64,000 bases of DNA. It comes from Thermococcus onnurineus NA1 (GTDB lineage Archaea; Methanobacteriota_B; Thermococci; Thermococcales; Thermococcaceae). The translations under genes and the position numbers were made by a program. Shown here in pieces: positions 5,249-64,000 of this stretch. Each line of letters starts with the position of its first letter. Positions within the stretch are counted from its first letter, which is position 1. Under the pieces are notes generated by a model. The model was not told where the DNA came from and did no database searches. It saw only the letters and a list, made by a program, of their open reading frames with translations. The stretch is taken from positions 620,001 through 684,000 of the forward strand of contig NC_011529.1 of the NCBI RefSeq assembly GCF_000018365.1, in the 5' to 3' direction.

Positions 5249-6244
5249 TCACTTCAAAACCCTGAAGTCTATCGCGATGTTGAACTGCCTCGGCGCGTAG
5301 GGGCGGACCTTTCTCTCATCCAAAAACTCAACGTGGAAGCCGAGCCCCTTCGCTATACCATTTATTTTCGCCTCGTGTTCAAAAAAGAGGTTCTCCTCGG
5401 GCCCAAAGCCATAGTAGTGGACAATTCCGCCGTCCTTAACGCTCAGCATAGCCTCCCTCAAAAAGCGATCGGCGAACTTGGGGAGATTCATTATCACGCG
5501 GTCGGCCTCAATTCTACCAGCGATCTTTCTAACGTCGCCAAGGATGGGGACAACATTCGGCATCTTGTTCAGCTTTCTGTTTTCTTCGAGGTACCTAACT
5601 GCCCAGGGGTTGATGTCGCAGGCGAAGACGAGCTTTGCTTTCTTTGCGAGGAGTATCGAGTATGGTCCGACGCCGGCAAACATGTCGAAGACGATCTCAC
5701 CCGGCTGGGTTTTCTCGAATATCCTCATCCTCTCGGTGGCGAGCCTCGGCGAGAAGTAGACCTTAGCAACGTCCAATCTGAGCCGTATCCCATTCTCTCG
5801 GTGGAGCGTTTCGGTTCTCCTCTCACCAGCAAGGCGAATCAGCTCCCTAACGCGGTATTCACCTTCAATCTTGCTCCCCTTAGCGAAGACGGCCTTTATG
5901 TGCCTGTGGACTTTCAGAATTGCCTCACCAATGGCCTTCCCGTAGGGCATCAGCTTTTCGGGAAGCTCGATTATCGCGACATCGCCGATGATGTCGAAAG
6001 AACTCGGGAGAAGAGGCCTCACTTCTTCGGGAACCTCAACGACCTCGCGGTAACTGTGGGGCCTCCGCTTAGTCTTCTCGAACTCTGCCTCCACGATTTC
6101 AAAGCCTTCAACTGGCCCGGTGACAGGGAAGAGTATGAACTCGCCCTCCCGCTTCACGGAGTAGCTTTTAGCCAGAACACCGAGCTCGATGAGCTTTCGT
6201 CTCGTCTTTTCGGCTTCTCTCTTGGGGACTTTTACGGCGAACAT
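5249..6244 (-). CDS. trm5b: tRNA (guanine37-N1)-methyltransferase, Trm5b type
   Basis: A 331-residue class I SAM methyltransferase of the archaeal Trm5 family, which makes m1G37 next to the anticodon and so prevents frameshifting. The SAM-binding motif FDMFAGVGPYS is at 186-196, the acidic end of strand beta2 (FACDIN) at about 207-212 and the catalytic NLPK motif at 253-256. The N-terminal part holds the D1-like and linker domains. Length matches Trm5b better than Trm5a or Taw2, but these paralogues are close and the subgroup is an inference. The gene is convergent with tldE and monocistronic. Confidence 0.85.
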   Translation of the reverse strand: MFAVKVPKREAEKTRRKLIELGVLAKSYSVKREGEFILFPVTGPVEGFEIVEAEFEKTKRRPHSYREVVEVPEEVRPLLPSSFDIIGDVAIIELPEKLMPYGKAIGEAILKVHRHIKAVFAKGSKIEGEYRVRELIRLAGERRTETLHRENGIRLRLDVAKVYFSPRLATERMRIFEKTQPGEIVFDMFAGVGPYSILLAKKAKLVFACDINPWAVRYLEENRKLNKMPNVVPILGDVRKIAGRIEADRVIMNLPKFADRFLREAMLSVKDGGIVHYYGFGPEENLFFEHEAKINGIAKGLGFHVEFLDERKVRPYAPRQFNIAIDFRVLK

Positions 6245-61282: not shown

Positions 61283-61326
61283 CTTTTTAAATCATTATAC
61301 CATATGTAAGTTTGAACATACATATG
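61283..61326 (+). promoter_or_regulatory. Promoter with 26-bp operator-like motif (first copy)
   Basis: The TATA element CTTTTTAAAT (61283-61292) is followed after 8 bp by CATATGTA (61301-61308), ten bases, and TACATATG (61319-61326). The arms are perfect inverted repeats, and the motif spans the expected transcription start near 61312. A second copy with the same layout lies at 63916-63958. Confidence 0.65.
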
Positions 61327-61337
61327 TTGGTGATAGT

Positions 61338-61406
61338 ATGATAGGGTTCGACAAGCACTCTAGGAAAGTACAGGTAATAAAATGCAAAGGGAGGTGCCGT
61401 CTATGA
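61338..61406 (+). CDS. 22-residue open frame ahead of the membrane protein gene
   Basis: ATG 61338 follows GGTGATAGT, as good a ribosome site as those of full genes. The 22-residue product is basic, starts MIGFDKHSRKVQ and has two cysteines near the end (CKGRC). Its stop (61404-61406) overlaps the ATG of the next gene as CTATGA, so translation of the two is linked. It could be a leader peptide or a genuine small protein; no family is known. Confidence 0.45.
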   Translation: MIGFDKHSRKVQVIKCKGRCRL

Positions 61407-62110
61407 AGTGGAGGGCTGCTCCAGCCTGGCTTAGGGGTATAATAGACTTAGCACTAACGATCGTTTTTGCAATAATAGCACTCTCAGGAATAGCCCTTTA
61501 CTTAGCGCCTTCCGGCAGGATAGCAAATACAGTCGGCTGGACCTTTCTGGGACTTGATAAAGACACTTGGACCAACATCCACACGTATTTAGGATTTGTC
61601 ATGATAGGCCTCGTGGCGGTTCACCTGATAATTGGATTTAAGAGCATGATAACCATGCTCAGGATGGGCTTTAGAAAGACTAAGTGGAAGCCTGTGATCG
61701 GGTTCCTGCTGGTGATGGGCCTCATAGCTGGTGGATTCCAAGTCTACAGTGCATACTTCGTGGAAGAAGAGAGTGACTCCAGCGATACTGACTACGAGTA
61801 CGTTTACACTCCAACCAATGACACTACCACTACATATACCTACGTTGAGATCACCGGAACGATGCTTAAGAGCTATACGTTACAACAGCTAGCGGATCTC
61901 TATGGGGTATCTGTGGACGATCTAGTTAAAGTCCTAAAGGATGATTACGGCATCGAGGCAGAGCCAGATGAGCTCCTCGAGGCCATCGAAATCAAAAACG
62001 GACTGGACAGAGAGGTCTTCAAAGAAGAGCTCGCCGCAGCTATTGAGAAGCTCCTGGATTTAAACACTCAAACTGAAGGAAACGAAACAGTTGAAGGAGG
62101 TGGAAGCTGA
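61403..62110 (+). CDS. Cytochrome-b-like (DUF4405-type) membrane protein with C-terminal helical domain
   Basis: A 235-residue protein with three N-terminal helices (IIDLALTIVFAIIALSGIALY, DTWTNIHTYLGFVMIGLVAV and IGFLLVMGLIAGGFQVY in shortened form). Histidines in TNIHTYLGF and VAVHLIIGF sit on one helix face, as in DUF4405/cytochrome b561-like haem-binding bundles. A Thr-rich outer linker is followed by a small helical domain, SYTLQQLADLYGVSVDDLVK, possibly ligand- or partner-binding. GGGAGGTG precedes ATG 61403. The next gene starts within its stop codon. A role in membrane electron transfer is an inference. Confidence 0.7.
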   Translation: MKWRAAPAWLRGIIDLALTIVFAIIALSGIALYLAPSGRIANTVGWTFLGLDKDTWTNIHTYLGFVMIGLVAVHLIIGFKSMITMLRMGFRKTKWKPVIGFLLVMGLIAGGFQVYSAYFVEEESDSSDTDYEYVYTPTNDTTTTYTYVEITGTMLKSYTLQQLADLYGVSVDDLVKVLKDDYGIEAEPDELLEAIEIKNGLDREVFKEELAAAIEKLLDLNTQTEGNETVEGGGS

Positions 62111-62334
62111 TGGGCCCTTACCTTCCCCAATACTTTTATGCTGAAACTCCTGGCTACGTCGAGTACGTGAACATAGCCCTCTGGCTCGTTCTCTTAGTGG
62201 TGGTTCTATTCTCCATGTACTCTCTCCATAAGAACCTCAATGCAGTGCTCAGTGAAATGAAAGGTATAAACACAGTTGCCTCTGAGCTAAGAGAGCAGAC
62301 TAATAGTGTTGAAAAGATCTTGGAGGAAGTATGA
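62110..62334 (+). CDS. Small single-helix membrane protein with coiled-coil tail
   Basis: A 74-residue protein: a short Tyr/Pro-rich N-terminus, one hydrophobic helix (VNIALWLVLLVVVLFSMYSL) and a C-terminal coiled coil (LNAVLSEMKGINTVASELRE, then QTNSVEKILEEV). It overlaps the stop of the previous gene (TGATG), so it is co-translated with the cytochrome-b-like protein and probably interacts with it. The family is unknown. The 225 bp after it hold a TATA element for the next gene and no other clear feature. Confidence 0.65.
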   Translation: MGPYLPQYFYAETPGYVEYVNIALWLVLLVVVLFSMYSLHKNLNAVLSEMKGINTVASELREQTNSVEKILEEV

Positions 62335-62514
62335 AAGTAGAGTGTCTTTCTTTAAACTTCCTCACGTCTTCTTTTCCTATTAACCTTCCCGGATGGCCAT
62401 CTTAAACACAAATAAACGATGACTAACGTTGTTTAACAATGTCGACCAAAAAATCACAATAACCAGATCAAGGCTGAACAAACTTGAATCTATACAGACG
62501 ATTTCATGAAGAAG

Positions 62515-62528
62515 GCTTAAATATGCCT
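62515..62528 (+). promoter_or_regulatory. TATA box of the CWB2 protein gene
   Basis: GGCTTAAATATGCC is nearly palindromic and ends 31 bp before ATG 62560. Confidence 0.55.
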
Positions 62529-62559
62529 TTTCACACAGGAATAACCGAGGTGATGTGAC

Positions 62560-63744
62560 ATGAGGTGGAAAAAAGCAATTGCACTGTTCCTTGGTTTGAT
62601 GCTTATAACAACTACCCTATCTTTCGGAAGGGTTTCAGCCGAGGAAACTTCAGTAACAGTCATTCTTGTTAGTGATAACGAGGCCGACTGTGCACTGGCC
62701 CAGTACCTAGCAAACGTGACCGGTGCGGTTGTTGTGATGACTACGTGGGGTGTTTACGATCCGAACGTAACTGCTGAGATTATGAGCTACGCTCCGGATG
62801 AGGTCATAATAATAGGTGGTCCTGAGGCAGTGGTGGAGGAGTACGTTAATGATCTTCAAGAGCTGGGTATTACGGTGGAGCGCTGGGGTGGTCAAAACAG
62901 GTACGAGACAAACCTCATGGTCATGACCCAAGCCCAAATCAAGTTCGGCCTTAAGTTCAAGGATAAGCTCATCATGGTTCCAGGCAACGACACGGCCGGA
63001 ATAAAGGCTGCCCTCAAGATAGCGGTCAGAGAGAGAGCGATGATTGCATTCGTCAATGAAACAACCAATGTGACCAAGCTGATGCTGAAGCTTCAGGTCA
63101 GAACCGGCAACGTGACCATCGTTGGGACTCCCTTTATGAACAGAACTCTGCTCAGGGTAAGGGAGCAGCTCAGAAACCAGTCCAGGGAGTGCAACTGTAC
63201 CAGTGTTCATGTCAACATAACTGCGGAGATAGCTCTCGAAGCGATAAACGCGGGTGAGGAGAGGATCAGCACCGCCAAAGCCCTCCTTGAGAACGCGACC
63301 CTCACTCCAATGCAGGAGAGACTGGTGGAGAGGATGCTGACGCTTGCAGAGAAAGAGCTGTCAGAAGCCAAAGAAGCCTACAGCGAAGGTAAATACGGAA
63401 AGGCCTACGGGATGGCGATAGCGGCGAAGGCCCACGCGGAGTTCGTGATAAGAATAGCCTCCAGCGATTGGAGCATGAGGATGGGGCTCAACCCCATGAT
63501 GAGGGCCAATGTAACACTCCACCGCCTGGAAGCCCAGATAAGAGTCCTAGAAAATGCTGGGATCGATGTCTCGGAATTAAAGAGCCTGGTTGAGCAGCTC
63601 AAGGTCGCCATCCAGAACAACGACGTGGAAATGGTCAACGTCCTCCTCATGAAAATCGAAGAGGCTCTTAGGGAGCTCTTCATGGGTGGCAAGTCCCACT
63701 TAAAGGCCCACGCTATGCCTTTTGCCCGTGGCGGAGCCCCATGA
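62560..63744 (+). CDS. Secreted protein with cell-wall-binding repeat 2 (CWB2)-like domain
   Basis: A 394-residue exported protein. A signal peptide (RWKKAIALFLGLMLITTTLS, cleaved after VSA) precedes a CWB2-like alpha/beta domain with PDEVIIIGGPEAVVEEYV and the diagnostic ERWGGQNRYETNL. A second half is helical with long heptad-like stretches (RMLTLAEKELSEAKEAYSEG, EAQIRVLENAGIDVSELKSL) and no trans-membrane anchor. Many NxT/S sequons suggest heavy N-glycosylation. CWB2 modules attach surface proteins to the envelope in bacteria; the archaeal ligand is unknown. The start follows GGTGATGTGAC. Confidence 0.82.
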   Translation: MRWKKAIALFLGLMLITTTLSFGRVSAEETSVTVILVSDNEADCALAQYLANVTGAVVVMTTWGVYDPNVTAEIMSYAPDEVIIIGGPEAVVEEYVNDLQELGITVERWGGQNRYETNLMVMTQAQIKFGLKFKDKLIMVPGNDTAGIKAALKIAVRERAMIAFVNETTNVTKLMLKLQVRTGNVTIVGTPFMNRTLLRVREQLRNQSRECNCTSVHVNITAEIALEAINAGEERISTAKALLENATLTPMQERLVERMLTLAEKELSEAKEAYSEGKYGKAYGMAIAAKAHAEFVIRIASSDWSMRMGLNPMMRANVTLHRLEAQIRVLENAGIDVSELKSLVEQLKVAIQNNDVEMVNVLLMKIEEALRELFMGGKSHLKAHAMPFARGGAP

Positions 63745-63915
63745 TGTTTAATTTTGTTTTTGATCCTTTTTATTTATCTGACTTCTTGTCGCCCTAAATA
63801 TGGAAGTCAGAGACCGAGAGAGAAAACAACCACTCCTCAATTAGTATTCTCTTCAGCTTGAGCCGCATGGTGTATGGGCCTAAGGCTACGTTTTTAACTG
63901 TATCTCCACCGAAAA

Positions 63916-63958
63916 CTTTATAAAGTCTCCGACATATGTAATATTAGACTTACACATG
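63916..63958 (+). promoter_or_regulatory. Promoter with 26-bp operator-like motif (second copy)
   Basis: CTTTATAAAG (63916-63925) is followed after 7 bp by CATATGTA (63933-63940), ten bases and TACACATG (63951-63958). The layout matches the copy at 61283-61326 except for one base in the second arm. Confidence 0.65.
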
Positions 63959-63973: not shown

Positions 63974-64000
63974 ATGATAAATATGAAGTTGTTTGGAGTT
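63974..64000 (+). CDS. Start of a gene cut by the window edge
   Basis: Nine codons (MINMKLFGV) are visible. ATG 63974 follows GGAGGTTGAG; an in-frame ATG at 63956 would overlap the operator-like motif and is less likely. The basic then hydrophobic start is compatible with a signal sequence, but no product can be named. Its promoter shares the motif of the gene cluster at 61.3 kb. Confidence 0.5.

Follow-up and report, generated by a model that had tools for sequence, protein, structure and literature searches.

A candidate ArsR-type regulator and its putative palindromic operator at DUF2202 and DUF4405 promoters of Thermococcus onnurineus NA1

Introduction

The Thermococcales glycolytic motif, which is recognized by TrmBL1/Tgr, is TATCAC-N5-GTGATA. 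TrmBL1/Tgr binds downstream of the BRE-TATA element over the transcription start (PMC6316755), a position similar to that of the palindromes described below, but it belongs to another family and has another motif and glycolytic targets. TFB-RF1 (PF1088) resembles the present system in being a Thermococcales regulator that is co-encoded with a membrane protein and has a palindromic motif and a conserved small regulon. However, TFB-RF1 is an activator whose motif, TCTGAANTTCAGA, lies upstream of a weak BRE (PMC5937170), whereas the motif reported here is different and lies downstream of the TATA box. The CopR motif, TTNNCAWWWTGNNAA (PMC7830388), which is located upstream of the BRE, also differs in both sequence and position. 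These two motifs agree with a remark in the preliminary description of this DNA that no known Thermococcales regulator has the motif. TFB-RF1, CopR, and OxsR were rejected as the regulator of the operator because their motifs differ.

The solved structure closest to the candidate regulator is that of another ArsR-type winged-helix protein, Phr (2p4w). The two are approximately 32% identical, but Phr carries an additional C-terminal domain and acts on other targets. SurR is of the same type, but its redox cysteines are absent here. OxsR of Haloferax (PMC9426492) is likewise a small single-domain winged-helix regulator, but it is a TrmB family protein with a CG-rich motif and a conserved sensing cysteine, whereas the regulator described here has no conserved cysteine.

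In the accessible part of their account, Makarova et al. (2015; PMC5898192) describe a neighbourhood of DUF4405, ferritin-like, and ArsR genes in Thermococci (arCOG04002, arCOG03957, arCOG01679 for the ArsR gene, arCOG07800, and arCOG08354), for which iron-dependent electron transfer was suggested. The operator-bearing operons reported here have genes of these kinds, clustered in the same way. That part of the account does not include an operator, scattered target promoters, a regulator-operator pairing, or an operator in Archaeoglobales, all four of which were found here. In the open-access literature we came across no account of the operator or of the regulon, so priority is not certain, and nothing relevant on DUF2202, MJ0754, or the motif was found there.

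Results

Two palindromes in the analysed window

The window, a stretch of 64,000 nt of the T. onnurineus NA1 genome, contains CATATGTAAGTTTGAACATACATATG at 61301-61326 (+), designated operator 1, and CATATGTAATATTAGACTTACACATG at 63933-63958 (+), designated operator 2. As the preliminary description reported, the 8-bp inverted arms are perfect in the first copy and carry one change in the second. At three or fewer mismatches, these are the only matches in the window; shuffled sequences average 0.19. The palindromic layout proposed earlier was right, but the arm extends to 9 bp rather than 8 bp in the majority of copies (CATATGTAA / TTACAYATG).

A TATA-like element of the DUF4405 operon, TTTTTAAA (61284-61291, +), is preceded by the BRE-like CCGAAA and lies upstream of operator 1. 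Motif scans of the window and genome, together with measurement of the TATA distance, show that about 26 bp separate the dyad of operator 1 from the TATA centre and that this dyad falls where transcription is expected to start, in keeping with the repressor-type position suggested at the outset. Operator 2, located by the same scans, follows the TATA box TTTATAAA of the DUF2202 operon (63917-63924, +), which is accompanied by the BRE-like CCGAAAAC. The spacing between the TATA element and the operator had been given as 7-8 bp; counted from the last base of the TTTATAAA-like octamer, it is 9 and 8 bp.

Behind operator 1 are a 22-codon ORF, MIGFDKHSRKVQVIKCKGRCRL (61338-61406, +; from the sequence and comparison with relatives), a DUF4405 membrane protein gene (cytochrome b561-like, arCOG04002 type) with an extra C-terminal domain (61403-62110, +; PMC5898192 and domain search), and a gene for a 74-aa protein with a single transmembrane (TM) segment and a coiled coil (62110-62334, +; from the sequence and relatives). 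Operator 2 precedes an exported DUF2202 ferritin-like gene, which starts in the window (63974-64000, +) and, according to the operon extension past the window, continues to genome position 684804. The truncated gene noticed earlier at the window edge is indeed present and is this gene, whose operon runs beyond the window.

Sites and targets in the genome

Across the genome, a single contig of 1,847,607 bp, CATATGTAA-N8-TTACATATG has exactly five strong copies (0-1 mismatch), at positions 192231, 681301, 683933, 735412, and 1052628. The only further matches are two weak ones, both at 3 mismatches. Each of the five sites lies directly downstream of a TATA box and ahead of a gene. Random placement was not seen, and only the promoters of a small number of gene families carry sites.

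The targets are two DUF2202 proteins, one DUF4405 protein, one 155-aa exported protein, and one 102-aa orphan protein. Both DUF2202 proteins are exported and ferritin-like (domain matches of 1e-62 and 5e-57), and MJ0754 (3q4o) is a solved relative. The DUF4405 target is a cytochrome-b-like membrane protein (Pfam, 5.9e-17), and its gene is followed by that of the 74-aa TM coiled-coil protein, relatives of which come after DUF4405 in regulator-bearing operons (e.g., L165 5656-5871). The products of the putative regulon are iron- and heme-type membrane and exported proteins. Searches of Pfam and NCBIfam with the 155-aa protein, and of Pfam, NCBIfam, and PDB sequences with the 102-aa protein, gave no significant match. 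The orphan gene is located at genome positions 192267-192572 (L008 6268-6573), and its family is present in 18 of the 41 genus genomes, usually with the operator touching the start of the gene.

Conservation in Thermococcaceae

When 60 relatives were scanned at two or fewer mismatches, the motif was found in most genomes of the genus, ahead of the same families. Conservation upstream of the orthologues, the absence of which would have spoken against an operator, extends across genera and into Archaeoglobales. We collected and classified 81 distinct sites among the matches listed, 79 of which lie ahead of DUF2202, DUF4405, exported B-type, or orphan C genes. The remaining two are a DUF2202 gene broken by a contig end and a site (L178) that was left unclassified by the gene-family search. 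The 81 sites carry approximately 40 bits of information over 26 bp, a figure that reflects descent plus constraint because many of them are homologous, and positions 3, 6, 8, 9, 19, 21, and 25 are invariant. The distance between the TATA centre and the dyad is 25-27 bp in nearly all A, B (exported-type), and D promoters, which puts the dyad over the expected start. The orphan-gene (C) promoters have a distance of 28-31 bp and a variable motif position 1. A BRE-like sequence is present in 65 of the 81 core promoters.

Matches to looser patterns (e.g., in G019, and a repeated one in G031) were dropped because they did not satisfy the 9-bp arms. Another family of the class contributed four weak matches, which have a single repeated sequence in common and do not represent this element. 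In G072, the second DUF2202 gene (L250 flip 5266-5933) is split into two ORFs, which suggests a frameshift or decay.

A candidate regulator in the operon of operator 2

The operon behind operator 2 encodes the DUF2202 protein, a beta-domain protein of approximately 100 aa, a 69-aa TM protein, an ArsR regulator, and a 67-aa TM coiled-coil protein, the gene of which overlaps that of the regulator. The regulator is a 100-aa ArsR-type winged-helix protein encoded just past the window edge (genome 685418-685717/685720), as identified by operon extension and a match to the Pfam HTH_5 profile (49.7 bits against a curated cut-off of 22). Its predicted structure has the ArsR winged-helix fold (AlphaFold pLDDT 95), and Foldseek matched the model to Phr, HlyU, SmtB, and CzrA, with P. 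furiosus Phr as the nearest solved structure. It is very likely that both palindromes are operators of a small regulon under this candidate repressor.

Among the 41 genus genomes, regulator orthologues (73-100% identity) are restricted to those that carry the motif, with a fragment in G016 as the one exception. In the genomes without an orthologue, nothing but distant paralogues was found, with identities no higher than about 45%. Counting from the two lists of operator sites and regulator matches in 94 Thermococcaceae genomes, we found, among the matches listed, that 59 have both, 31 have neither, 3 have the operator only, and 1 has the regulator only. The operator thus co-occurs with one regulator gene (Fisher p ~3e-20 among the matches listed, a value that ignores relatedness and therefore overstates independence). 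In the operator-only genomes (G017, G020, and G087), contigs end beside the operon, and the regulator-only genome (G074) is 77% complete. The presence of DUF2202 tracks the same pattern except in G007, which has the site and the regulator without DUF2202.

The recognition helix, ISRQLLYLHL, is nearly invariant in Thermococcaceae and Archaeoglobales alike, and it holds the sole invariant His of the orthologues. No conserved Cys/His set corresponding to the SmtB/ArsR metal ligands (Cys/His/Asp of alpha3 or alpha5) was found among them, and a conserved redox cysteine of the SurR, MsvR, or OxsR type is absent. The single cysteine, Cys29, is replaced by V or S in some Thermococci and by M or other residues in Archaeoglobales, which makes metal or thiol sensing of the classical kind unlikely; sensing through the classical ArsR residues was rejected because these are not conserved among the orthologues.

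A TM coiled-coil gene of approximately 70 codons follows the regulator in nearly all examined loci with enough downstream sequence; the L179 sequence stops shortly after the regulator. Two genomes, G027 and G014, have an intact regulator gene apart from any close operator match, and feedback would therefore not be universal. At these loci (L263 3579-3875; G014:C1:975485 and 657429), the intact gene is outside the DUF2202 operon, and a second, partial copy remains within that operon in G014. This arrangement is perhaps a relocation caught part-way.

The same pair in Archaeoglobales

In a scan of named genomes, the regulator was found at 58-68% identity in Archaeoglobales and in other archaeal MAGs. 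It is present in 9 of the 57 genomes of the order, and six of these nine have a site at two or fewer mismatches, always within about 2 kb of the regulator. The 48 genomes without the regulator contain three poor matches (p=2e-4 against 6 of 9, ignoring relatedness). In four whole genomes (G119, G120, G122, and G125), the sites at this threshold are those of the regulator operon only. G118 has two perfect sites ahead of exported B-type proteins, G140 and G121 have versions with 3 mismatches, and no site was found in the genome scan of G137, which has the regulator. A degenerate palindrome with 4 mismatches lies directly before the regulator gene in G127 (L281 about 1777) and is a possible autoregulatory site.

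The Archaeoglobales operon draws its members from the same set (a small exported protein, DUF4405, and once DUF2202), together with the ArsR protein and a TM coiled-coil protein. The palindrome follows the TATA box of the first gene, and its dyad is 17-18 bp from the TATA element. The L180 operon comprises only DUF4405, ArsR, and the TM protein, with ArsR as its sole DNA-binding gene. The same operator, regulator, and operon in a different class suggest that the pair was transferred or is an ancient inheritance, its specificity having been either kept over a long distance or transferred.

These observations bear on whether a different transcription factor binds the operator, with the ArsR gene being one more member of the regulon. 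Because the operator controls ArsR-containing operons, co-occurrence alone would look alike, and other winged-helix paralogues are present in every genome. However, the operator accompanies the ArsR operon across the class boundary, including L180 with its single DNA-binding gene. Moreover, genomes without this ArsR protein have paralogues yet no sites (among the matches listed), and G007 keeps the site and ArsR without DUF2202. We therefore consider a different factor rather unlikely.

Proposed mode of regulation

The promoter-confined sites, their conservation, and their co-occurrence with one regulator gene favour, at the sequence level, the shared repressor-operator reading of the preliminary description. 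We infer binding by the ArsR protein, repression, and feedback, as follows. A regulator dimer would bind CATATGTAA-N8-TTACATATG so that the dyad falls on the transcription start, immediately behind a strong BRE/TATA, and would block RNA polymerase or start-site melting. Some signal would release the regulator and allow production of the exported ferritin-like DUF2202 proteins, the DUF4405 b-type membrane cytochromes, the small exported proteins, and the 102-aa orphan. Where the regulator gene lies behind an operator, release would also yield more regulator and hence negative feedback. Relay of the signal may fall to the membrane coiled-coil protein whose gene comes directly after that of the regulator.

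The position of the operator over the expected start, behind BRE-like elements in 65 of the 81 promoters, speaks for steric repression. Some positions allow archaeal regulators to activate, and CopR does so in P. furiosus (PMC7830388), but an activator or dual regulator is quite improbable here: the sites lie downstream of the TATA box over the expected start, as with TrmBL1 (PMC6316755), and the frequent BRE-like sequences contrast with the weak BREs of TFB-RF1-activated promoters (PMC5937170). An RNA-acting or extended core promoter element is scarcely credible, because, although the full 26-nt palindrome could fold as RNA, the expected start at the dyad leaves only half of it transcribed, the transcribed leaders do not surpass shuffled sequences in folding (the reason for which the hairpin was rejected), and the element is missing from nearly all promoters of this genome and entirely from many genus genomes.

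For the proposed ArsR-type repressor, it is conceivable, though doubtful, that it forms a two-part sensor with the membrane coiled-coil protein of approximately 70 aa, in which the extracytoplasmic iron or redox state is read and the repressor is titrated or released. The logic would be analogous to that of Bacillus SdpI/SdpR. If true, the two proteins would constitute a compact membrane-to-DNA switch of archaea, common to Thermococcales and Archaeoglobales. An operator, a set of targets, and a candidate regulator can be assigned to an uncharacterised, conserved ferritin-like/cytochrome-b cluster of hyperthermophiles. Its function becomes directly testable, as the de-repressing condition would point to the physiological role.

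Other features of the region

The beta-rich domain of approximately 80 aa (L161 5003-5296 and relatives) is common to the 155-aa exported protein and the DUF2202-operon protein. Its fold was predicted confidently (pLDDT 85), and a PDB structure search gave no match at E below 0.2. The 22-codon ORF at 61338-61406 ends in IKCKGRCRL, and ORFs of 21-36 codons in L078, L246, and L261 have nearly the same tail. The recurrence of IKC(K/R)GRCR in these three relatives may reflect a ribosome site and not a peptide, because the tail overlaps the Shine-Dalgarno sequence of the DUF4405 gene. An exported protein with CWB2 cell-wall-binding repeats is encoded between the two operator operons (window 62560-63744), and its relatives adjoin the regulator locus in L255, L261, and L263.
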